A stretch of DNA of 34,428 bases, from the IMG/VR virus record IMGVR_UViG_3300042991_000760, positions 1 through 34,428 of that record; one strand, 5' to 3'. This stretch comes from a virus. Position 1 is the first letter of the stretch; each line of letters starts with the position of its first letter. Positions 3,710 through 34,428 of this stretch are shown piece after piece. The notes beneath the pieces were generated by a model, which worked only from the letters and a program-made list of their open reading frames with translations, was not told the origin of the DNA and searched no databases. Made by a program: the position numbers and the translations under genes.

Positions 3710-4154
3710 CTTCCTGTCCCTCCTTCTCTTCTTTTTCCTTTTCCTTTTCTTTTTCCTTTTCTTTTTCCTTTTCTTTTTCTTTTTCCTTTAGGTGCCAGTT
3801 TTCTATTACCTCTTTGTTCTCACAAGGGTCATTACAGGCATCGTAGAACTCTATCATTCTTTCCTGAATTGTTTCCTTTGTGGCCTGATCATTGAAGTAT
3901 ACTATATCCTCCCACTGGCCCTTGGGAGTGCGCCTGCTCGGCATGCAGAGGTAAAGCCCGTTGGATCCTGAGATGAGTTTCGCTCCATGGACGACCATAT
4001 TTCCGTAGGGGAATCTGCAGTAAGCTACGAGGTGCCCCTGGCCTTTTACGACGTTCATAAAGTACCCTGGGTACTTCCCTGAGCGGTACTTATATGTGAC
4101 CTCGATGTTGACCCAATTTTTCTTTTTCGCTATTTCCCTGTATTCTGGTTTCAC
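3621..4154 (-). CDS. SpoVG-family protein with long Lys-Glu tail (copy 1)
   Basis: 177 residues. Residues about 40-105 carry a SpoVG domain: VAYCRFPYGNMVVHGAKLI, then GLYLCMPSRRTPKGQWEDIV, where MPSRRTPKG is almost the canonical family motif, then a helix ending YDAC. After it comes a run of about ten Lys-Glu pairs from pyrimidine-rich repeat DNA (3729..3790) and a basic/acidic tail to 3621. The tail overlaps the next gene by 89 nt, so the biological end may lie near the repeat if repeat length varies. Start is coupled to the endolysin stop (ATGA at 4154). Likely a nucleic-acid-binding regulator made late. Confidence 0.8.
   Translation of the reverse strand: MKPEYREIAKKKNWVNIEVTYKYRSGKYPGYFMNVVKGQGHLVAYCRFPYGNMVVHGAKLISGSNGLYLCMPSRRTPKGQWEDIVYFNDQATKETIQERMIEFYDACNDPCENKEVIENWHLKEKEKEKEKEKEKEKEKEKEEKEGQEDGPDEKEAGFHGHDGEVARRHTRKPRKPK
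3729..3790. repeat. CTTTTT/CCTTTT repeat encoding Lys-Glu run
   Basis: A pure pyrimidine tract on the plus strand built from CTTTTC and CCTTTT hexamers encodes alternating Lys and Glu on the minus strand. Hexamer gain or loss would keep frame, but single-base slippage would change which of two frames is read downstream. Purine/pyrimidine asymmetry could also favour triplex DNA. Confidence 0.75.
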
Positions 4155-7741: not shown

Positions 7742-8545
7742 CTATGATATTTCTACAGAGAAGTTCCCCACTACCGCTTTAGCTTCCCACGTGGTGTTTG
7801 CCGTGGTGCACTCAAGCGTAATGGCGCAACCAAGATGAGCGGCAGTTATTTTGCCTGCGGTTTTTGTCACGGTCGAGCCCAGGCGAATCGTTTGCCCCGC
7901 TGCCGCTGTGACACTGAACAGGTCTGTAGATTTCGCCAGAAATTCTATCGAACTGCCTGCCGCTGCTGTGGCCGGGAGGGCGATTGCGCATATAGCCCCG
8001 GCGTTGTTGACCACATAGCTTTTGTTTACCTCTGCTGTTACAGGCGTAGTGCCTAGTTCCTCATAAGCAAGCCCACCTGATGCAGAGATAGTAACAATGT
8101 CGCTCCCTGCCGTGGTGGTGATTGCAATACCTGACCCTGCGGCGAGGGTAAGGGTATCGCCTGCGGCATCGGCGACTACGTTATCTTGCCCCGATACAGC
8201 AATGGTCGTGAATACGTTCTGATCGCCCGTGTTGGTGCCTGACACCGAGGCATCGAGGGGAATGGTGAGCGTCTTGGACTCTCCCGAAAACGTAATCGTG
8301 CCGGGGTATCCATCACCGATGGTGAAGTTCTCGTTCATCGTCAGTTCCCGCTCTGCGTTTGCCGTGTCAACGGTGAGCTGTGCCTTCTGTGTCTTCGCTT
8401 TAAGATCGAAATCGAACCCGTCCAATAGCGAAAAGGTCTCGGCAATCGTGAACGTCTTTACGTTTGTCGATCCCCATGCTACCGAGAAGCCATCAGCGTT
8501 CTGCGTGAACCCGGGGCCTGCCCCTGACACTAATTTTTCTGCCAT
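7742..8545 (-). CDS. Tail-fibre-like protein with repeated beta structure
   Basis: 267 residues, Ala/Thr/Gly-rich, few charges. It contains SVSGTNTGDQNVF, a motif common in phage fibre shafts, and a C-terminal domain of about 105 residues (YEELGTTPVTAEVNKSYVVN to the end) that is paralogous to the next gene's product: both have a T-AxVN-xYVxN start, an AxGQTI centre and a CxTANTxW close. Probably a trimeric fibre or head-fibre component displayed on the virion. Confidence 0.65.
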   Translation of the reverse strand: MAEKLVSGAGPGFTQNADGFSVAWGSTNVKTFTIAETFSLLDGFDFDLKAKTQKAQLTVDTANAERELTMNENFTIGDGYPGTITFSGESKTLTIPLDASVSGTNTGDQNVFTTIAVSGQDNVVADAAGDTLTLAAGSGIAITTTAGSDIVTISASGGLAYEELGTTPVTAEVNKSYVVNNAGAICAIALPATAAAGSSIEFLAKSTDLFSVTAAAGQTIRLGSTVTKTAGKITAAHLGCAITLECTTANTTWEAKAVVGNFSVEIS

Positions 8546-8546
8546 G

Positions 8547-8918
8547 CTATACCTCCATTATGAATGTTCCGTCTGACCATATTATTTTCCAATCGGTATT
8601 GGCGGTGAAACACATTACCGTGATTCCTGCCAGGTACGTACCGCTCTTGATGTACCCGCCGTCAACTGTCGAGCCCTGCGCAGAGTGTATCGTCTGCCCC
8701 GGGTTCGCCTGCAGTTTCCAGCCGCCCGCCCCCTTGCCGCAGACCGCTATTTCGTCACCGAATGCTGCCACGGCAGGGAGATCGATTGTAACGAGGCTGA
8801 CATTGTTAGCGACATAGCCATTATTTACCGCCGCCGTGGTTGCGGTTGTTACCTCATTCCAGGTCAGAGATCCGGCGGGGCCTGGAGGACCTATTCCTGA
8901 TGGTTTTATTATTTTCAT
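8547..8918 (-). CDS. Short fibre-like protein with collagen-like start
   Basis: 123 residues from ATG at 8918 (ATGA overlap with the giant upstream gene; longer open sequence upstream is inside that gene). It begins MKIIKPSGIGPPGPAG, a short collagen-like GPPGPAG linker, then one domain homologous to the C-terminus of the next fibre protein (NEVTTATTAAVNNGYVANN, ANPGQTIHSAQGS, CFTANTDWKIIW). Probably a short fibre or adhesin assembled with its neighbour. Its paralogy suggests duplication of a receptor-binding domain. Confidence 0.65.
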   Translation of the reverse strand: MKIIKPSGIGPPGPAGSLTWNEVTTATTAAVNNGYVANNVSLVTIDLPAVAAFGDEIAVCGKGAGGWKLQANPGQTIHSAQGSTVDGGYIKSGTYLAGITVMCFTANTDWKIIWSDGTFIMEV

Positions 8919-11900
8919 CTGCCGTGTCTCCAGTCGCTGGGTTTTATCGGCAGATCTTCTTTCCACAACCCTTTACGTTCTTTCATCGCTTCTGTTTCGA
9001 GCTTTCTGAATGTCTCTCGTTCGTCTTCGTTGTATCCCTGTTTATCTTTGGTGTATTCCTGGTAGTGCCAGGCTAGGCCGGCTTTGACGAGCTCTTGCGC
9101 CAGGTCCCAGGATTTTCCGTCTTTATCTACAGAGATGACCCGGGCGACCAGGCGTCCTTTTTCGTCCTTTGTGACTACGTTGAGCTTCAGTTTTCTCCCG
9201 CTTATCATTCCCTCTGCGAATCTCTTTGATCGCTCGCTGAATGGTTGCTCTCCTTTTTTCCCCTGGTAGGCGTGATCCGTTTCCGGGGCGTCAATGCCGC
9301 TGACCCTGACGGTTATCTTTTGCCCGTGATACATGGTGTCGAAGGTGTCTCCGTCTTGTATCTTGTGGTAGATGTCTGAGATTTTGTCTTTCCCCGAGAG
9401 AGCACTTTTGATTCCCTGGAGGATTCCCCCTTTGGCTTGCTCTGCCTTTTCGAGCCTTTCAGAAACATCCTGGTAGGCTCTCTGGTCTGGTGATCCCTGG
9501 CGCTTTATCTTACTGCCGGCATAGACTTCCAGATGACGTTTCCTGGGCTTGAGATCCTCTATTTCCTTTTCGAGTTCGAGCTGTTTTACGATCCTCGGGT
9601 CAATATTCCCCTTCCCGTTGAGCGCCTCTATCCTTCTGTCGATGAGTTCTTGTTTCCGCTTGATGTCGGCTTCCATGTCTTTTTTTGCGGTGTCCTGCCC
9701 GAATTCGGCACCCTTCACGTTCGTAACATTCAGTTTTATCGGTGATCCTACATTGTAGACTGCGCCCGGGACCGTCTCCGGAGCTGCGCCTTTCCATGGG
9801 GCTTCTCCCTGGGAGGCGTCTATTATTCTTTTCGCCAGGTATGCGGGAGGCAGGGCTTTTTGCAGTGAATGTATCGTGGCATCCCTGACCCTGTCTGGCG
9901 ACTCTTTCGAAATGACCTTTCTTCCGGTGTAAGGGTCGACGTCACTCCATCCCAGCATGACGGACAGGTTGGAGATGATGGGGCCCCCGGGCATCGCCAG
10001 GGCCGGTATGCCGAGGTTGCCTTGCGGTTGCATTATTTGGGCATAAGGCAGTGCATTTGCGAGCCCCGCCGATGTCGGTAAGTACCCGGCGTCTTTGTCC
10101 CTTCCCCACATTGTTTTTCCTTTTTTCGGGTTCGACGAGAAGGGGAGAAGCGGGTTTACTGTATCGCTTATGGCGTCACCGAAGCCTGGGATGGTGTTCA
10201 GGATTCGTCGCCCTTCCCTGTCCTGCCTGGCATCTCTCACGGAATCGAATTCAGTTTCTGACATACCCGTCTGGTTCTTTGAAAACTCGGTGAGCATCTT
10301 GGACATGATGGGCACTGACCAGAATCTGGCAGCTCTTGCAGCAGAGAACTGTCCGTTGTGGCCCACTCCCACAGCTAGGCGCATCATGAGCGGCATGATC
10401 TTTGTGCCGAAAGTGAGGAAGGGATGGGTGGTCCTGTTGAGGAGTTTCACCGCTCGGGAGACATCAGCATAGTCGAACAGAGCGAAGTTGCCCATGTCGC
10501 CTGCATCTTTGAATGCACGAAGGTCTTCCAGGGTGAAGTCCTTTTTGTCTTGGATTCTTCTTCCGTCTTTTACAAGATCATACCTGTCACCGTATTTATG
10601 GAATTCGTAGCCGAGCTCTCTCAGCCTGGCACATCCTATTTCCATTTTTGCTTTCACTTCAGAACCCTGGTACCACTGAGCCGCCTTGTCAACCACAGCC
10701 TCTTTCAGGTCCATTGTTTTGTCGAGAATCGTGGGAGGCTTTATGCTTCTCATAATTTGCTTCGCCATCGGCAGAGAGCTTTCTGAGGCGAGCTCTGCCT
10801 GCACGAAAGAGCTTCCCCTGATGCCCATCGCTTCTGCTACCTGTGACTCAAAAGCGTCCGATGCAGTATTCATCGATCGCTGGGTGAATTCTCTGTCTGA
10901 TTTTTGTTTGTTTCCGGTCATTATCCAGCTCACCGTCTTGTTCCAGATGGAGTTGTTAAGCGCGGTTTTGGGCCATAGAATCGTGGTCATTTTCTTCCAG
11001 GGATTGAGCACGAATTCATGAGATTTTCCTATGGTGCCGATGTCGGGCATACCCCTGTCTGCTATATAAGATTTGAGCTCGTTGAATATGCCTTTGTGTA
11101 GGTAGGTATGCTCTCCCGTGCCGGCTCCTTGCCTGAACATCTCGGCTATTTTTCGCCCCAGTGCCGACTCCCCGAACATCTTTTCACCTATTGCAATCTG
11201 GTTTTTACCCGGGCCCCCGGTGGATCTTTGCCGGTATCCTTTGTCGATTACCTCCTGCACGAATTTGAGGAGCTGGCTCGTGGGCACTCCTTCCATGACC
11301 CCTTTGGCGATCATGAATGTCTTTGGGGCTTCCCCGCCGAGCATCTGCATGATTTGGGGCGAAAGGTCTTTTCTTCTCCTCATTGCGTTCATTGATAGAG
11401 TGCTGCCGGCTCCCGTTGGTGTTGGTGATGGGCCCAGGTGGGCAGGCACATTGTCTCCACCCATCACGAGTCCTTTGATGGTTTCCTGTAGTTCTAATGG
11501 AAGGGTGGCGAAGTCGGGTTGCTCTATGATCTTCTGCAATACCGTTTCGTCTGCGTTTCGCAGGACGGTCTGGAAGAATCCTCTGGTGAGATGGGGAATG
11601 TAGTTCTGATCTGCAGGGTCCATCGCCGCCCTTGTTATATCTTCTGCAGGGGTTCTTTCTGCTGGTCGTGGGTCTACCCGTCTCAGGTGCGTGGCGTCTA
11701 TCATCCCGGATTCGAGTTTCAGGTTTTCGAGATCCCTCATTCTTCCCCTGATGATGTCCACTACCTGCATGATGTTTCCCGAGGGGCCCCCTACTGTTCC
11801 TTTCTCTAGTTGCCACCTTGCCTCTGGAATCTCGACATACCTTTCCATGTCGGCGAGCTCTTCCGGGGTTAGAGTTCTTCTTCCCTTCAGCTTGCTTGGC

Positions 11901-12868
11901 ACGATTCCGTTCTCTGAGGCATAGGTCATGAGGGTTACTATTTCGTTTGCAATCTCCCTGGCTTTTCCGCTTGATTCGTAAAGGGCCCTCCTTCCTTCTG
12001 CCATGTCGAGAGGCGTTTCCCCTTCTTTATACATCCATTTCTGAATGACTGCCGGGGTGTTGTCCTTTACGAATTGCTTCAAAGGCGAGATAACAGGGTT
12101 GATGATCGGAGCTGCTGCCCGGGCGGCTGGGGGGATGATTGCCTTTGTACCGGCGTGGAGGAGTTTGCCTCCCACTATCATCTCTCCCAGGTCTAGCCCC
12201 GTCTTGGCCGACCAGAGCAATGGGTCTTTCTGAATATCCTCGGGGGAAAGATCCTTTCCTTTATGCCACGGAGATTCTTTTGCAATCTTTTTCACCACAT
12301 CTTCCGATGAAGGGCCCTTCATCGGGAGAAACTCTGCAGCGCCATCAGGAGTGTCGCCGTACAGGATTTTCCTGATGTACCCAGGGGATACCTGGTTGAG
12401 CGGATTTCTGGGCTCATAGTTGATAACGGCCTGGTTGATTGGGTTGTTGACTCCCCTGACAAAGAAGTCTCCCAGCAATTTGTTGAGATCTTCGCCCTTA
12501 CCGAAGATATTGCCGACGTTCTTTACGGTCCCCGAGAACAGGGCCCCTGCCAGGTCTACCCCGGTCTTGGCCCCCTTTGCAGCGTTGAATATCGACTGCC
12601 CCGGGTTTGCCCCTGATTTACCGAACCCGCTGACGAAGTCTTTGGCGTCAGGCGTGGAGAGTGCGTGTTTGATTTCTTTTGAATAGGTGCCGATGACGGG
12701 TATGGCGTCTATGCCTTCGTCCTTCGGTTTTGTAAGTTCATCCAAGAGGATGTCTGGCTTCTTTTTGTCTTGCCCGGGGGGCTTCGTGAGCTCGTCCAAA
12801 AAGATATCGCCCCCGTTTGAGGGCGCAGTAAGTTCGTCAAGAAAAGAGTCAGCTACGGTCTCTTTCAC
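8915..12868 (-). CDS. Giant virion (ejection-type) protein with C-terminal staphylococcal-nuclease domain
   Basis: 1317 residues. The N-terminus has three copies of a FLDELTxP motif within 50 residues. The long middle is helical, with Gly/Ala patches (VDLAGALFSGTV; PPAARAAAPIINPVISP) and basic segments, like internal proteins of podoviruses that are ejected with DNA. Residues about 1161-1305 are a thermonuclease-type (SNase) domain: DGDTFDTM (Asp1172), ITVRVSGIDAPET (Arg1188, Asp1193, Glu1196), DEKGRLVARV (Arg1239), ELVKAGLAWHYQ. Every SNase catalytic position is kept except the Thr after the second Asp, which is Ala. No signal peptide. The fusion suggests a calcium-dependent nuclease carried in the particle and delivered into the cell or envelope. 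Virion location is inferred from gene order. Confidence 0.75.
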   Translation of the reverse strand: MKETVADSFLDELTAPSNGGDIFLDELTKPPGQDKKKPDILLDELTKPKDEGIDAIPVIGTYSKEIKHALSTPDAKDFVSGFGKSGANPGQSIFNAAKGAKTGVDLAGALFSGTVKNVGNIFGKGEDLNKLLGDFFVRGVNNPINQAVINYEPRNPLNQVSPGYIRKILYGDTPDGAAEFLPMKGPSSEDVVKKIAKESPWHKGKDLSPEDIQKDPLLWSAKTGLDLGEMIVGGKLLHAGTKAIIPPAARAAAPIINPVISPLKQFVKDNTPAVIQKWMYKEGETPLDMAEGRRALYESSGKAREIANEIVTLMTYASENGIVPSKLKGRRTLTPEELADMERYVEIPEARWQLEKGTVGGPSGNIMQVVDIIRGRMRDLENLKLESGMIDATHLRRVDPRPAERTPAEDITRAAMDPADQNYIPHLTRGFFQTVLRNADETVLQKIIEQPDFATLPLELQETIKGLVMGGDNVPAHLGPSPTPTGAGSTLSMNAMRRRKDLSPQIMQMLGGEAPKTFMIAKGVMEGVPTSQLLKFVQEVIDKGYRQRSTGGPGKNQIAIGEKMFGESALGRKIAEMFRQGAGTGEHTYLHKGIFNELKSYIADRGMPDIGTIGKSHEFVLNPWKKMTTILWPKTALNNSIWNKTVSWIMTGNKQKSDREFTQRSMNTASDAFESQVAEAMGIRGSSFVQAELASESSLPMAKQIMRSIKPPTILDKTMDLKEAVVDKAAQWYQGSEVKAKMEIGCARLRELGYEFHKYGDRYDLVKDGRRIQDKKDFTLEDLRAFKDAGDMGNFALFDYADVSRAVKLLNRTTHPFLTFGTKIMPLMMRLAVGVGHNGQFSAARAARFWSVPIMSKMLTEFSKNQTGMSETEFDSVRDARQDREGRRILNTIPGFGDAISDTVNPLLPFSSNPKKGKTMWGRDKDAGYLPTSAGLANALPYAQIMQPQGNLGIPALAMPGGPIISNLSVMLGWSDVDPYTGRKVISKESPDRVRDATIHSLQKALPPAYLAKRIIDASQGEAPWKGAAPETVPGAVYNVGSPIKLNVTNVKGAEFGQDTAKKDMEADIKRKQELIDRRIEALNGKGNIDPRIVKQLELEKEIEDLKPRKRHLEVYAGSKIKRQGSPDQRAYQDVSERLEKAEQAKGGILQGIKSALSGKDKISDIYHKIQDGDTFDTMYHGQKITVRVSGIDAPETDHAYQGKKGEQPFSERSKRFAEGMISGRKLKLNVVTKDEKGRLVARVISVDKDGKSWDLAQELVKAGLAWHYQEYTKDKQGYNEDERETFRKLETEAMKERKGLWKEDLPIKPSDWRHGR

Positions 12869-13968
12869 TGAGGTACTGCTCCTACAGATTTTGACTTTCT
12901 GAGTCCAACTATTGCCTTATTTACCTTTTCGTCGGTGATTGCTCTTCCGTCTATTGCGAATCTGCCGGGAGATATTTCTGAGAGCCTGGTGCCGTATCTT
13001 TCAATGGCAGTCTTTGCTTTGCTCATCGAGAGATCACCTTCTTGCATTGTCTGACCAGGCTGATCATCTTCTTGCATTGTCTGACCAGGCTGTTCACCTC
13101 TTGCCATGGCGGCTATTTCATTTCGGTGGATGCCCCTCCGGTCTCCGCTTGGTCTGCCGTAGGTTCCGATAAGGTTGAGAAGGTCTGTTTTGTCTGCAGC
13201 CGGCATGAGTTTAAAGACTCCGCGCCCTGCGATGATGTCGTCTTCCCATATATTTCCAGTGTTCGGATCCCCTGCTACATTCATGAGCCTTTCTAACATC
13301 TTCTGCTGGGCAGTCTGCTTCTGCTCTTTCCCAGGCTTCGTCTGGGCGACCTTTAATTTCCATCTGCCTTCTTCCTCTGCTGTCTTCAGATCTCCCTGGT
13401 TTTTTGCCTTCACCAGGTTCATGGCCTGTGTCTGGGCCTCTGCGCTTGCCAGTGACTTCTGGGCCCTTTCTTTACCGAGCATATCCTCCACGAGGGGATA
13501 GTTCTCGCGAATACCCTCCTCGCTCTGAATCTTTTTGTCTTTCCACGGTTCCTGGTATTTTTTGAGTTCTTCCTTTGTTCCGCTTCCCTTTTTGAAGAAG
13601 TTGAGGTCGGAGCTGCCCGCCCGGGGGACTGCGGTACCATTGTAATAGCCCGCCGGTTCGAGGGTCTTTTCTTTCATTATTTGCGCCAGGAAAGGAGCGA
13701 TCCTCGCCCTGGTCTGTTCGTCTGTTTCCGGGGGAGGAGCGTTCTCTGGTACAGCTCTGAGCGCACCTGCGTTTGCCGCGTTGGCGAGCCCTTCGAGAGC
13801 TTCGTTCCTCCGTTGTCCCATCTCAGGAGTGTAACCCGCGAAAGGAGATCTCTGTTCAGGCATGTGATTCTCGAACTGCTTTGAGATGGTGCCTCCGGGC
13901 GTAGAGCTGTACCCTCTTTGCGCCAGGTCGTCCATGAGAAGTTTTACCATTCTGTCCATGTTCTCCAT
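12865..13968 (-). CDS. Internal virion-like protein, helical, with QPGQTMQE repeat
   Basis: 367 residues, charged and largely helical. Residues about 85-170 contain TDEQTRARIAPFLAQIMKEK and KKYQEPWKDKK; about 195-240 is an Ala/Lys/Gln coiled coil. Two 10-residue QPGQTMQE(D/G)D repeats near 293-312 come from a 30-bp DNA duplication. Stop overlaps the start of the giant nuclease protein (ATGA), so the two are likely made together. Probably an internal or ejection protein by position; no family recognised. Confidence 0.6.
   Translation of the reverse strand: MENMDRMVKLLMDDLAQRGYSSTPGGTISKQFENHMPEQRSPFAGYTPEMGQRRNEALEGLANAANAGALRAVPENAPPPETDEQTRARIAPFLAQIMKEKTLEPAGYYNGTAVPRAGSSDLNFFKKGSGTKEELKKYQEPWKDKKIQSEEGIRENYPLVEDMLGKERAQKSLASAEAQTQAMNLVKAKNQGDLKTAEEEGRWKLKVAQTKPGKEQKQTAQQKMLERLMNVAGDPNTGNIWEDDIIAGRGVFKLMPAADKTDLLNLIGTYGRPSGDRRGIHRNEIAAMARGEQPGQTMQEDDQPGQTMQEGDLSMSKAKTAIERYGTRLSEISPGRFAIDGRAITDEKVNKAIVGLRKSKSVGAVPQ
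13032..13091. repeat. 30-bp tandem duplication inside the 12865..13968 gene
   Basis: Two adjacent 30-bp units (13032..13061 and 13062..13091) differ by one base near the start. They keep frame and encode the QPGQTMQE repeats. Confidence 0.85.
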
Positions 13969-21387: not shown

Positions 21388-22545
21388 TTACGACTGTGCG
21401 TAGATTGCCACGCCGAACGTCTCGACATTGGCGAGCTGGAGGCCGAGCTCTGACAGGTATTCGCCCATCTCTTCATCGGCATCATTGTCCTGAATGTCTT
21501 CACGGAGGATGTGCTTTCTACCTTCGATGAAGCGGATCATGAGTTTGCTCATATCCATGACGATACCCATGTAGCCGAAGATAGGCCCTTCGAAGATGTC
21601 GGTCACGATGAGCACCAGCTCCCCGTGCACAGTCTTGTACTTCTTAATGACCATTCCCAGGGTGGTTTCGCTCTGGGAGATCATGACCTTATCCGTTGCC
21701 CAGGTATCGAATACGGTTGCCCATGCCCTGGAGCATACGAATGCCTTGGTCTTCTTGCCGAAGCGCATGACTTTTTCAAGCCATTTGTTGAATTCGGCCT
21801 GGGTTGGCCAATCGCCGAAGTCTTTGTAGTTCGGGCAGGTTTCGAGCCACTCCAGGACGCCGCCGGTTGTCCTTTCAGCGTGTTCGCCCGAGGTTTCCTC
21901 GGAGCGTTCTGAGAAGATGAGTGTCCTTTCGATGTCGATCCGGTGGGTGAGAAGCTCTTCCTTCTTCATCTCCGGGAGCGTCTTTTCGCCTTTGTTCTTG
22001 CAGTGCTTTTCTGTCTCCGTAAGGCCGAATGGTGTCCTGATAATCTGGGTATAGTTGTACTTCTCTGTGGGCTTCGGGAGTTTGATACTCCTGGTGCCGG
22101 CGCCTTCCTGGTTGGAGTTGCCGATGATGAGCAGGTCGTCGTTGTGGATGAGAGCTGTGGCGGCGTATGTGGCGCCTATTGACCTGGTCACAGTGAGTGT
22201 GCTGGTTGCCGCTGTCACCAGGGTAACGCGCATCGTTTCTTTTGTTCTGGGTACCTTGACAATGTCTCCTGCGCGGAAATAGGTGATGTTGGCGACGACG
22301 ATGTCGGTATCCGCCGATGTATATCCTGCGGCACAGTTGATCTTCGACCATCTGGGGCTGAGAGTTTTCTCATGCCAGAAGAATTTCGGATCATCGGTGA
22401 CTTTTGACCGGAGTTTCGTGAGAAATACAAGAAGCTGGCTTTCGTCGGGAAGAAGTTTCTCGATCTCTTCCTGGACGTCGTATACTCTTCGCTGGCCTAC
22501 ATGGTCAGCTCTTTCCATTGAACCGCTGGTAAGTACAGCGCACAT
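21388..22545 (-). CDS. Major capsid protein (SU10/DUF5309-like)
   Basis: 385 residues. Features of the SU10-type HK97-fold capsid family are visible: N-terminal RVYDVQEEIEKLLPDESQLL, TKLRSKV and FFWHEKT, a beta insertion with TYFRAGDIVKVP and LTVTRSIGATYA, then IIRTPFGLTETEK, a glycine-rich turn GGVLEWLETCPN, and C-terminal strands with LVTDIFEGPIFGYMG. Gene order portal, scaffold, capsid supports it. This would form the icosahedral shell. Confidence is high for capsid, moderate for the subfamily. Confidence 0.8.
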   Translation of the reverse strand: MCAVLTSGSMERADHVGQRRVYDVQEEIEKLLPDESQLLVFLTKLRSKVTDDPKFFWHEKTLSPRWSKINCAAGYTSADTDIVVANITYFRAGDIVKVPRTKETMRVTLVTAATSTLTVTRSIGATYAATALIHNDDLLIIGNSNQEGAGTRSIKLPKPTEKYNYTQIIRTPFGLTETEKHCKNKGEKTLPEMKKEELLTHRIDIERTLIFSERSEETSGEHAERTTGGVLEWLETCPNYKDFGDWPTQAEFNKWLEKVMRFGKKTKAFVCSRAWATVFDTWATDKVMISQSETTLGMVIKKYKTVHGELVLIVTDIFEGPIFGYMGIVMDMSKLMIRFIEGRKHILREDIQDNDADEEMGEYLSELGLQLANVETFGVAIYAQS

Positions 22546-23549: not shown

Positions 23550-23857
23550 TTTTGTTTTCGCTCCTTTGGTATATAGTTTTGGTGCTTCTCAAGTTGTTCT
23601 TCGCACCACTTACCCTCTGATATACCATTATTTACCATAGTCAGGATTTTCTGTATAGTCCTGGCCTCCATTTTGAGAGCCTCTGAACCCTCATCGCTTT
23701 TTGAGTTTAAAAAATTTTCGTAGCAATTTTTCTGCGTTGACTGAAAAAATCCCAGAACAAGCTGCCAGCCCTCCTGTTCTGCCATTTTCTGCAGTTTTCT
23801 TCCTTTTTCTACTTTTTCCCTGAATTTATGCATCTGGCTACTCGAAATTCTTATCAC
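23546..23857 (-). CDS. Small charged helical protein, unknown
   Basis: 103 residues from GTG at 23857 with AGGAAAC just upstream, overlapping the portal 3' end by 20 nt; the ATG at 23833 (MHKFREKVEK) is an alternative start. Almost wholly helical and basic (FREKVEKGRKLQKMAEQEGW; EQLEKHQNYIPKERKQK). Its stop overlaps the scaffold start (ATGA). A role in head assembly is suggested only by position. Confidence 0.6.
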   Translation of the reverse strand: MIRISSSQMHKFREKVEKGRKLQKMAEQEGWQLVLGFFQSTQKNCYENFLNSKSDEGSEALKMEARTIQKILTMVNNGISEGKWCEEQLEKHQNYIPKERKQK

Positions 23858-25835
23858 TGTTTCCTATCGCTCCTCTCGCGTTTTTCTTGGTTACGTCAAT
23901 CGCATTTTCCATCGGCGGCTGTTTCGCTGGATGGTTGAATCCTTTCACCTGCTCACCAAAGACCAGGTCTTCTCGTTTCTCCATTCGTTCCTTCTGGTGC
24001 GATGCTTCCTGCTGTTGCGCCTGTTGTTGCTGCATCTGCTGCTGCTGGGCCATCTGCTGCTGTTGCATCTGCATCTGCTGCTGTTGCTGCATCTGAATTT
24101 CCTGGGTCGTCATGCAGAGTTCTTCAGGATTTTCTATCTCCATGATTTTGTAAACGCGCCGCGCCAGCGCATCCCACTTCTGCGAGTTCGCCATCTGCGG
24201 GATACCTCCGACTGTCTGGAGCAGTGTCATGATGAGCTGCTTGTTGGCTTCCTTTGTTGAGCTGTTCGGGTCATAAGTTGGAATAACATCAAAGTCTTCA
24301 ATGATCATGTCTTTGTTCGCTTTCACCGATTCGTCCTCGGTGAGGTTGAAGGTCTGCTCGTTGGTGAGGAATAGATTGTTCAGCCCTATCATCTTCTCTA
24401 CTGTCGGCACCACACCGTTCTGTGCGTTATAGAGCAGGTGGAATCTGAACCTGGCCTGGCTCTGGTTTGTGAGCGTGGTAACTCCGGTGGCTGTGTCGTT
24501 CATGGATGGGGAGTTCATCCCCCTGAAATAGTCATTGATTCCGGTGATGTCGGAGGCCATCTGTTTTTTGCGGTCCTCTTCTTGGTAGAATGCGGCGAAG
24601 GGCGTATCCCTTCCGTCAAAAGCCCGCCTGATGATTTTGTTGAGGTCTTCCCCTTCATTGATTTCGATTTTCTTGAAGGGCCACATTTTGTCCAGGTCCC
24701 GGGGGTCCGTGAGTTTTCCCTGGCCGACGAACCATGGGGAGTTGAGTTGCATGATGATCCAGTTGTTTCGTGCATTGTGCTGCCAGGTCATATCTGAGGA
24801 GATCTCGTAGAGCAGCTCGCAGAGTCCGATGCCGTAGAACGAATATTCCTTCGGGATATAGGGATATGAGATGATGTTGTTGCCCCCGTTGAAAAAAGGC
24901 TCCCACTCTGAGCGCACGATGAATTTTCTGTTGAGGATAAAGATGAACCATCCGTCTTTGTACCATTCGATGACTTCATACCGCTTCTCGTCTCCCTGGA
25001 AGAATCGGTAATCATTGTAGCCCATGAGGTCTTCCCTTTCTGCGGGGCCCTGGTCCTGGTGTCCCATATCTTCGAGGGTTTCCATGTCAAAGTCACGGTT
25101 TTTCGTGTGGAATACTGCTTGCCCGTCTGGGCCTTTTTTGAAGAGATTTCTGATTTGCTTTTCTGAGAGATAGGCGAAGTGGCAGTATTCTTCAAGAAAT
25201 TCTCCGTAGAAGGCTGTGGGATCCGGGAGGAAGGACCAGAGGTCGATGGGTGTGACCATGGGTCCGTCAAAAGTGGTGATTGGTCTTCTCTCTACCCCAG
25301 CCGCCATTTCGAATATCTGGTCAAACATCGGAACTTTCATCTTCTTGGTTCGCTTCAGGTGCTTAATTTTTCGTTCCCATGATACTTTCTGAATGGCCGT
25401 GCCGTAGGTGCCGCTTTCCATCATGGTGGTGACCATTGATCGGCTGTACTTCATCTTCCGAAGTTGGCAGGAAATTATCTTGTCGGTAATGTCCTTTTTC
25501 CAGTTATCCACGGGAGAGTTGAGGTTATTGGGCTTTATGGTGCAGAAGTTCTTTAGGGGATTCATGAAGGCTTCCGTGAGGCTGGGAACTACCGTGTAGA
25601 GCATCATGGGGGCCAGGGGCACTGAGGTGTTACTCTCCCATTCCCTCTCATATTCGAGCGTATCCATGTAGTTCATACGCATCTTGTAAAAGGCTTTCCA
25701 ATCCTCCTTATATGGCGAGCGGTATTGTTCGGCTCGCGTGATAAAGTCCTGGCATTGTTTTACCAGGTCCTTTTCCTCTTCTTCGCTCAGATTGAGCTCT
25801 TCGAGATATTCGTTATTATCTAGGATGTCGTTCAT
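23838..25835 (-). CDS. Portal protein
   Basis: 665 residues, start overlapping the terminase nuclease stop (ATGA). It has the podoviral portal pattern: N-terminal helices with YKEDWKAFYKMRMNYMDTLE, YTVVPSLTEAFM, MESGTYGTAIQKVSWER, TPIDLWSFLPDPTA and YFRGMNSPSMNDTATGVTTL. A Gln-rich barrel-like segment (QMQQQQQMQMQQQQMAQQQQ, about 570-600) precedes a basic tail. The long length and Gln-rich barrel resemble P22-type portals. It forms the dodecameric vertex for DNA entry and tail attachment. Confidence 0.85.
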   Translation of the reverse strand: MNDILDNNEYLEELNLSEEEEKDLVKQCQDFITRAEQYRSPYKEDWKAFYKMRMNYMDTLEYEREWESNTSVPLAPMMLYTVVPSLTEAFMNPLKNFCTIKPNNLNSPVDNWKKDITDKIISCQLRKMKYSRSMVTTMMESGTYGTAIQKVSWERKIKHLKRTKKMKVPMFDQIFEMAAGVERRPITTFDGPMVTPIDLWSFLPDPTAFYGEFLEEYCHFAYLSEKQIRNLFKKGPDGQAVFHTKNRDFDMETLEDMGHQDQGPAEREDLMGYNDYRFFQGDEKRYEVIEWYKDGWFIFILNRKFIVRSEWEPFFNGGNNIISYPYIPKEYSFYGIGLCELLYEISSDMTWQHNARNNWIIMQLNSPWFVGQGKLTDPRDLDKMWPFKKIEINEGEDLNKIIRRAFDGRDTPFAAFYQEEDRKKQMASDITGINDYFRGMNSPSMNDTATGVTTLTNQSQARFRFHLLYNAQNGVVPTVEKMIGLNNLFLTNEQTFNLTEDESVKANKDMIIEDFDVIPTYDPNSSTKEANKQLIMTLLQTVGGIPQMANSQKWDALARRVYKIMEIENPEELCMTTQEIQMQQQQQMQMQQQQMAQQQQMQQQQAQQQEASHQKERMEKREDLVFGEQVKGFNHPAKQPPMENAIDVTKKNARGAIGNSDKNFE

Positions 25836-26755
25836 ATTCTTCTCCTTCTGCTATTTCCCGGGCCCGGGATGTGGTAGGTTCTTTTTGGCCTTGGTTCGTT
25901 TGTGAGGCTTCGCGCCAGGCCAACGATGTCAAGGAAGTTGACTACGAAGTACCTGAGTCCATCCATGAGGTGTCCGTAGATGTTTCCGTCTTCTGGTTTT
26001 TCGCTTTCCTTTTTCGTGATGCCGGGTTTTGTGGGCTCAAAAATGTATCCTCCGAAAAATCCGTGGGAGAGGAATACGCATCCTTCGTCTTCGCTGTTGA
26101 GCATTATCTGCCCGGATTTTATGAGGTTTCTTACTCTGTCTGTTCCGTATTTGATGCCTTTTTTCGTGTAAATCGGGTATACCCCGTGCTTTGCCATGAG
26201 ACTGATGCAGGTTGCGTTCGTCATAGGATTTTTCTGCAGGCCGGCTATGTCGCAGCAGTCTTTGATGACGTAAGGTTCATCCCAAGCTGTTTTTTCGTTT
26301 CGGAATACCGGTAGGATTTGCCTGAGGAGGAAGTCCTCGAATTCAATGTCTTCCCCCTGGATACATTTAATGATGTATGTCCTCGGGATGTCGTTGTAGT
26401 TTGTGTTTTTGGTGTCGGTTTGGAGATACATCACTGCTGGGTGATGGTAGCCAAAGTCCCAGCACCTGAATATTGTGGGAAGGAACGGGTTCAGGGGAGC
26501 TGGTCTGAACATCTCCCGCTTAAACTCCCCGTAGAACCTTTTTCCTCCCCTGGCATTCCAGTTGATTTCCATTTCGCGTTCGATGTCAGCCTCGCTCATA
26601 TTCTCGGTGGCTTCCTCGAACCATTCCCTGCCTTTCTCAGTTATGGGGTCCTTGTCTGGGTCTGCGGTATAATGCACTTCCAGGCATGGCAATTTGTTCT
26701 TCGGGTTTCTCCAGAATCTGATGCCTTTCATGAGGTGAATAGCGTTAAGCGACAT
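25832..26755 (-). CDS. terL: Terminase large subunit, nuclease part
   Basis: 307 residues. RNase H-like nuclease motifs are in order: CWDFGYHHPA (Asp100), VIKDCCDIAG (Asp166/169) and HLMDGLRYF (Asp265), expected to bind the two catalytic metals that cut concatemeric DNA. The N-terminal linker (VHYTADPDKDP; EWFEEATENMSEADIEREME) is what normally follows the ATPase domain in a one-piece TerL. Its ATG lies inside the 3' end of the ATPase gene (11-nt overlap, +1 frame). Complete as a domain but lacks an ATPase. Confidence 0.85.
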   Translation of the reverse strand: MSLNAIHLMKGIRFWRNPKNKLPCLEVHYTADPDKDPITEKGREWFEEATENMSEADIEREMEINWNARGGKRFYGEFKREMFRPAPLNPFLPTIFRCWDFGYHHPAVMYLQTDTKNTNYNDIPRTYIIKCIQGEDIEFEDFLLRQILPVFRNEKTAWDEPYVIKDCCDIAGLQKNPMTNATCISLMAKHGVYPIYTKKGIKYGTDRVRNLIKSGQIMLNSEDEGCVFLSHGFFGGYIFEPTKPGITKKESEKPEDGNIYGHLMDGLRYFVVNFLDIVGLARSLTNEPRPKRTYHIPGPGNSRRRRI

Positions 26756-27434
26756 ATTTTTCCACCACTTTCATGGTATCCATCACCATTTCCTTCATGA
26801 ACCCTTCCTCTGCCGAGCTCACGATAGTCATCCTGCCACCACCCACGATGGTTGGTTTGGCGGCTCGGTATGCTTCATCCATGTCTTCTTGGAAGGCACC
26901 TTCGTCTGAGAGAATGGCCGATGCAGTCTTCTGCCGGATCTGCGAGCCGCCCTTCGCCAGTGCCAGTACCTGGCTCCGGTTTGAGAAGTAGGTCTTTTCC
27001 GTGAGAGACTTCACCACCTTGACCTTTTCTTTGAAGCATGGTTCGAGGTGGTAATAGATAAACATGAATCGCTCCAGGAGTTCATTGGCGTCTTCTTGCT
27101 TCTGGGCCTGGATATAGATTCTCTGGGAGTTCCTGGAAATGGCGAGCCACAGATGCAGGCCCAGCATGAGCCAGGTAATAAGCATTTGCCGGCTCTTTGG
27201 GATGAGGAGCACGGGGTACATCCACCGGAGGTCTTCTTTCATTGCTGACCAGTATTCGGTCACGATGCGGAGATAGTCTTTGTCTGGGAGTTTTTTTGTA
27301 GGGGAGAGATGGTCGTGGGGATCTTCTGTGTAGCAGAAATTGCTGACGAAATACCAGGCATCGAGTCTTGATGCCATGATTTCTATCTCAGCGCAGGTCG
27401 CGTGAACGCTGTGGGGAATGATTATCTTGCTCAC
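26745..27434 (-). CDS. terL: Terminase large subunit, ATPase part
   Basis: 229 residues. LLIPKSRQMLITWL (about 77-89) is the Walker A-type motif of phage packaging ATPases and SAILSDEGAF (Asp177-Glu178) the Walker B; a coupling-type MTIVSSAEEG follows. It ends VVEKYVA just where the nuclease domain would begin. The nuclease is the next gene in another frame. This may be a genuine two-gene terminase, translation-coupled by ATG inside the ATPase end, or one gene broken by an indel. Start overlaps the small-terminase stop (GTGA). Confidence 0.85.
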   Translation of the reverse strand: MSKIIIPHSVHATCAEIEIMASRLDAWYFVSNFCYTEDPHDHLSPTKKLPDKDYLRIVTEYWSAMKEDLRWMYPVLLIPKSRQMLITWLMLGLHLWLAISRNSQRIYIQAQKQEDANELLERFMFIYYHLEPCFKEKVKVVKSLTEKTYFSNRSQVLALAKGGSQIRQKTASAILSDEGAFQEDMDEAYRAAKPTIVGGGRMTIVSSAEEGFMKEMVMDTMKVVEKYVA

Positions 27435-34001: not shown

Positions 34002-34033
34002 AGTTTTTTCCTTCTCTTTCCTTTCTTCTCTCG

Positions 34034-34088
34034 TAAAGTTCTCATAAAGTTCTCATAAAGTTCTCATAAAGTTCTCGTAAAGTTCTCG
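34034..34088. repeat. Five 11-bp direct repeats before the ATPase gene
   Basis: TAAAGTTCTCA occurs at 34034, 34045 and 34056, with TAAAGTTCTCG at 34067 and 34078. Period 11 is close to one DNA turn, so copies face the same side of the helix. The unit spans the stop of the 45-residue gene and the leader of the ATPase gene. On the mRNA each unit has an ATGAG or ACGAG start-like core in a rotating frame. It could be an operator array or a slippage product. Confidence 0.8.
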
Positions 34089-34190: not shown

Positions 34191-34428
34191 TAAAGTCTCA
34201 GCCTTCTTTTTGCCGGCACTTCTGCCTGGGGAGTTGGTGCCTGGGGAGTTGGTGCCTGGGGAGCTGGTGCCTGGGGAGCTGGTGCCTGGGGAATTACTGT
34301 CTGGTATACAACGGTGCCCATAGCAAGAGGGCCGAGGATACTTTCTTTCGTCGCGTCTTTCGCAGATATAAGGTGAAACCATTCTTCGAATTGAGCCGGG
34401 GTGAGCTCTTTCGAAGTATTTACACCCC
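34190..34428 (-). CDS. C-terminal part of a protein with Pro-Gln-Ala repeats (5' end off window)
   Basis: The frame is open from the right edge to TAA at 34192-34190. It reads NTSKELTPAQFEEWFHLISA, a helix ending PLAMGTVVYQTV, then a PQAPA/PQAPT linker encoded by four 15-bp repeats (34224..34283) and a basic end AKRRLRL. The rest of the protein lies outside. Flexible linker plus basic tail fits a nucleic-acid-binding replication or recombination protein, but I cannot name it. Its stop couples to the 45-residue gene. Confidence 0.65.
   Translation of the reverse strand, partial: GVNTSKELTPAQFEEWFHLISAKDATKESILGPLAMGTVVYQTVIPQAPAPQAPAPQAPTPQAPTPQAEVPAKRRLRL
34224..34283. repeat. Four 15-bp repeats encoding PQAPA/PQAPT
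   Basis: GCCTGGGGAGTTGGT or GCCTGGGGAGCTGGT units begin at 34224, 34239, 34254 and 34269, with a partial fifth to about 34291. They keep the frame of the right-edge partial gene and form a Pro-Ala linker. Confidence 0.85.

Follow-up and report, generated by a model that had tools for sequence, protein, structure and literature searches.

A staphylococcal-nuclease domain at the C terminus of a putative podovirus ejection protein

Virion proteins that carry a staphylococcal-nuclease (SNase) domain are already known from other phage types, namely as baseplate hubs of the myoviruses BtI1 and ME3. The BtI1 hub protein has an N-terminal staphylococcal-nuclease-like domain, the reason for which was described as "not obvious" (Hardies et al. 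2007, PMC2147016). In Acinetobacter phage ME3, the annotated jumbo-myovirus baseplate hub ME3_37 (PHROG 8809, 2329 aa) holds its SNase in the middle of the protein (around residues 1108-1244). The virion of the short-tailed phage SU10 contains five ejection proteins, gp20-24, which are released from the head; gp20 carries a transglycosylase, and a nuclease is not mentioned in the SU10 paper (PMC9509320). In LUZ24/phiEco32-like lineages, the genes for internal virion proteins lie between tail-tube and fibre genes (PMC10386132). Phage polyvalent proteins are giants with enzyme domains that are thought to be packaged and injected, and the domain LPD38 has been reported exclusively in polyvalent proteins of the phage type (Iyer et al. 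2017, PMC5512222).

We analyzed a linear virus record of 34.4 kb from an uncultured phage (the window, i.e. the whole stretch of 34,428 nucleotides), in which the gene for a giant protein, P0001, ends in an SNase domain. P0001 shares with the BtI1 hub the joining of an SNase domain to a phage protein of presumed structural function and with ME3_37 the location of the SNase within a very large protein. In contrast to these myovirus-type hubs, P0001 is a candidate podovirus ejection-type giant with a C-terminal nuclease, and its scaffold is unrelated to that of ME3_37. It resembles SU10 gp20-24, T7 gp16, and the N4 vRNAP in coming from a short-tailed phage, in being a large helical protein, in gene location, and in probable delivery, whereas the enzyme noted for SU10 is the transglycosylase of gp20. 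The gene location also agrees with that of the internal virion protein genes in LUZ24/phiEco32-like lineages. As in polyvalent proteins, whose LPD38 members occupy the same slot in capsid-related phages, a giant bears an enzyme; P0001 differs from them in having one enzyme domain only and no detectable LPD38. Within the limits of the open-access literature, we found no earlier description of an SNase fused to a podovirus ejection-type giant. We consider it probable, at roughly 0.6, that P0001 belongs to the giant ejection-type proteins of a podovirus virion and delivers an active C-terminal SNase as its cargo.

Gene setting of the giant protein

The following genes define the setting of P0001:

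8915..12868, minus strand: giant protein gene P0001, an open frame of 1317 aa with a GTG start and AGGAG 5' of the start
12865..13968, minus strand: upstream coupled gene, 367 aa, overlapping P0001 by 4 nt
8547..8918, minus strand: downstream coupled gene, its ATG overlapping the P0001 stop as ATGA
21388..22545, minus strand: SU10-type major capsid protein (PF17236, E 2e-34)
23838..25835, minus strand: SU10/P22-type portal protein (PF23899, E 7.3e-25)

P0001 is translationally coupled on both sides through 4 nt each, GTGA with the upstream stop and ATGA with the downstream start. The structural genes run in one direction from 27838 to 6210 with mostly tiny gaps or overlaps (none above 79 nt), and P0001 lies within this unbroken late operon, between the neck/tail genes and the fibre-like genes. 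The SU10-type portal and capsid proteins point to a short-tailed phage. The 367-aa product of the upstream gene matched no family in Pfam or PHROG and is a possible second ejection protein. The two genes that follow the giant (7742-8545 and 8547-8918) are paralogous (E about 1e-12).

GC and GC3 of the nuclease part equal those of the rest, so that there is no sign of an assembly join, and a recent acquisition of the nuclease part, as judged by composition, was rejected. No ATG, GTG, or TTG that could start a free nuclease occurs between residues 1066 and 1178, and separate translation of the domain is thus unlikely.

Elsewhere in the window, the large terminase is encoded in two overlapping frames, one for its ATPase half and one for its nuclease half (25832-26755 and 26745-27434); their junction contains an A5 run (GGAAAAATATG). 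The halves are likewise found in separate ORFs, 1.4 kb apart, in one relative (L061). The split may be a frameshift, a true split, or a sequencing indel. Positions 1930-2676 encode a queuine tRNA-ribosyltransferase-like protein (PHROG 887, E 5.8e-23), which is possibly a DpdA-type DNA-modification enzyme. Short tandem repeats at 1190-1268, 3729-3789, 13032-13104, 34029-34087, and 34223-34292 are unusually many for a 34-kb phage.

The C-terminal SNase domain

Two features were delineated in the C-terminal part of P0001:

8954..9373, minus strand: staphylococcal-nuclease domain, residues about 1166-1305 (Pfam, PDB, AlphaFold2 plus Foldseek)
9398..9490, minus strand: long helix between the core and the nuclease, residues about 1127-1157 (AlphaFold2 model, helix 22-52; low-to-middling confidence)

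The profile PF00565 matched residues 1186-1304 over its full length (positions 1-107 of 107) with 76.9 bits against a curated cut-off of 21 (E 1.9e-21), and the S. aureus SNase structure 1snq from the PDB aligned with residues 1169-1305 (E 7.9e-10). Residues 1106-1317 were modelled with AlphaFold2 together with 37 phage SNases. The pLDDT exceeded 90 over most of the SNase domain, and Foldseek matched the modelled domain to SNase structures with an E of 2.6e-9 and a TM score of up to 0.84 (1snc, target-normalised); the model thus predicts the OB-type fold of SNases. The claim of the first-pass annotation that a complete SNase domain ends the 1317-residue protein was borne out by both the profile and the structure search, at scores well above chance.

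In an alignment with 38 phage SNases, every invariant column is present in the P0001 domain. Asp1174, Arg1188, Asp1193, Glu1196, and Arg1239 correspond to Asp21, Arg35, Asp40, Glu43, and Arg87 of SNase, all of which are conserved or invariant in the 38 proteins. The catalytic set proposed at first pass was therefore correct for Arg1188, Asp1193, Glu1196, and Arg1239 and off by two residues for its first member: Asp1172 corresponds to Asp19, and it is Asp1174 that matches Asp21, the catalytic metal ligand. Both aspartates are invariant in the 38 phage SNases. The same annotation had taken the exchange of Thr41 for alanine (Ala1194) to be the only change. This did not hold, as Glu1236 and Lys1237 stand where the S. 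aureus enzyme has Lys84 and Tyr85, and alanine is ordinary at the Thr41 position: 63 phage SNases with a readable motif have Ala (28), Ser (28), Cys (5), or Thr (2) there. The exchange is thus ruled out as a mark of lost or altered activity. From the residues kept and the modelled fold, the domain is predicted to be catalytically complete.

The replacement of Lys84 and Tyr85 would also suit an SNase fold that serves to bind nucleic acid or as a structural element and cuts little or not at all, and leaving a nuclease uncontrolled next to packaged DNA would come at a cost. SNase repeats without activity have usually lost catalytic or metal positions. All invariant positions of both kinds are retained in P0001, which makes a non-cutting module improbable.

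The N-terminal repeats, the core, and relatives in other phages

The remainder of the protein contains two recognizable features:

12725..12844, minus strand: three copies of [FL]LDELT[AK]P, residues 9-48 (translation and shuffle test)
10370..11119, minus strand: core conserved among giant phage proteins, residues about 584-833 (match to profile g7)

The N-terminal FLDELTxP repeats of the first-pass annotation are real. FLDELT copies occupy residues 9-14, 23-28, and 41-46, the repeat score was reached by none of 200 shuffles, and FLDELT[AK]P is absent from the other examined proteins of the window. For comparison, 80 related phage contigs were gathered via the capsid protein. In many of them, the matching slot holds a giant of about 900-2000 aa, and these giants often begin with a short motif, present two or three times, whose sequence differs per lineage, as in SLDDIDxML (Mel-JY34), PENFVPAQxFLS (a Desulfofustis phage), GGFFDDIG (G019), and PTLGDxARQA (G037). 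Repeat-bearing N termini of slot giants include L011:20949, L012:23778, L205:667, L230:15191, and L232:12768. At a repeat-test p of 0.01, 8 of 30 giants scored, compared with 24 among 345 long non-giant ORFs of the capsid strand (Fisher p 0.0018), a comparison in which several control matches stem from low-complexity sequence and not every giant counts as independent. This recurrence lends indirect support to the earlier idea of a capsid-loading tag, and the repeats would fit a binding or loading tag.

Pairwise searches, whether started from the complete protein or from its N-terminal part, retrieved no relative from viral contigs, bacterial genomes, or phage records, and an exact search for the motif pattern found nothing. 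A weak match to Microbacterium phage exonucleases (E 0.2) was dismissed as chance, since it concerns a replication-region gene and lies outside the nuclease domain of P0001. A relationship emerged with profile g7, which was built from 12 giants of other phages, mostly podoviruses, with the window protein left out. Among about 2,600 ORFs, it matched P0001 at residues about 584-833 with an E of 1.4e-6, covering only about 250 of the 1150 non-nuclease residues; 300 shuffled copies reached at most 5.4 bits, compared with 29.8 for the real protein. With an earlier version of the profile the E value was 0.014, and the other sub-threshold matches were mostly giants of the same slot. The motifs of the core are "PxxxxxN" and "FDY...PFxT...K..PL". 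P0001 thus has a core common to giants of phages with the same head type, and by sequence it is placed, as a divergent member, in a broad family of phage giants. AlphaFold2 on the core alone gave a pLDDT of 36; hence no fold is claimed for it.

The slot giants fall into many families with no pairwise match between them. The largest family, with L113:10389-15845 among its giants, carries LPD38, and overall the giants have matches to ART-PolyVal (ADP-ribosyltransferase-like), helicase/methylase, and zincin-like domains; one LPD38-family giant also has PARP- and DnaJ-like matches. The second family, from which g7 was derived, comes from a close capsid relative (G006), podoviruses, and actinophages (e.g. 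Shocker gp37) and shows the motifs "P...hvrN" and "FDY...PFyTw..K..P". A profile-profile comparison linked it to the LPD38 family with a probability of 96 and an E of 2.6e-9. LPD38 itself (PF18857) had no match in the window protein, which excludes a direct assignment and leaves only a distant link via the g6/g7 core. At E 0.1, the SNase was the only enzyme or effector domain found in P0001. The protein therefore lacks the two or more enzyme domains and the LPD-type domain by which polyvalent proteins are defined.

SNases of phages are as a rule encoded separately: 79 of 80 loci are stand-alone ORFs of 65-405 aa. The lone exception, on a 251-kb jumbo-phage contig (L161:7878-16322), has the SNase near the N terminus of a product of at least 2815 aa, whose ORF lies a short way downstream of a terminase-like one. 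None of 53 records of phages with the same capsid or portal protein contained an SNase-giant fusion. The sole SNase among them (L038) is encoded on its own and has hydrophobic segments at its N terminus, an arrangement in keeping with a late-made giant that stays outside the particle and whose nuclease works in the producing cell or at lysis, e.g. by trimming host DNA. Such a role for P0001 is opposed by its membership in the giant core family, its place in the ejection-gene slot, and its tight coupling with structural genes, and we regard it as rather improbable.

Possible delivery of the nuclease

From the complete SNase, the g7 core, and the late-operon slot of SU10-type ejection proteins, we infer an ejection protein with nuclease cargo and, with it, the putative virion presence, ejection, activity, metal, and target of P0001. 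The SU10-type portal and capsid, the operon slot, and the core match likewise argue, indirectly, for the podoviral ejection protein of the first-pass annotation. This reading, an ejection protein of the virion that carries a nuclease as cargo, has good support but falls short of proof. According to it, the protein would be made late, packed in the head or portal region, and leave by the tail together with the genome or shortly ahead of it. The helical core may help to build or line the delivery channel, with the nuclease exposed at its far end. There, the nuclease might cut host DNA or RNA, or competing phage or plasmid DNA, in the envelope or the cytoplasm. Attack on host DNA or RNA, degradation of competitors, and processing of phage ends had all been suggested at first pass, and the present evidence favours none of them over the others.

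Canonical SNase requires Ca2+, which is scarce in the bacterial cytoplasm. If millimolar Ca2+ were required as in the S. aureus enzyme, the nuclease would be off in the producing cytoplasm and work best in the periplasm, and its packing beside the phage's own genome would be understandable. SNases that prefer or depend on Mg2+ exist (PMC3585158), so that this calcium-gate argument is insecure. Moreover, an active nuclease packed with phage DNA would be a danger to that DNA once lysis exposed the enzyme to calcium.

The calcium requirement would also suit a virion protein whose nuclease acts outside the cytoplasm on barriers or rivals, either extracellular DNA surrounding the host or phage or plasmid DNA crossing the periplasm, in the manner of the stand-alone thermonucleases that mobile elements commonly carry. 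Stand-alone SNases are widespread in phages and also on plasmids (at least 5000 PLSDB records; 4208 predicted conjugative among the matches listed), and outward-facing myovirus baseplate hubs with an SNase exist in ME3_37 and BtI1 (PMC2147016). The position and core of P0001, however, are like those of internal or ejection proteins rather than of outer tail proteins, and the fibre-like genes are separate (8547-6473). We therefore hold an action restricted to the outside to be unlikely, and delivery of the nuclease by an ejection protein remains the preferred reading.

We tentatively suggest that the ejection giants are a swappable delivery scaffold with N-terminal repeat tags and varied cargo enzymes, in this case possibly a calcium-gated nuclease. 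If the reading is true, an injected general nuclease would be a DNase/RNase entry effector of a kind missing from the catalogue of polyvalent proteins published so far. If delivered at entry, it would serve as a weapon made in advance, at work on host nucleic acid or rival elements ahead of phage gene expression, and its packing next to the phage's own DNA would be a puzzle. Judging from the other giants, whose repeated N-terminal motifs are a possible loading signal, podoviruses of a common environmental class may possess a slot for swappable cargo.
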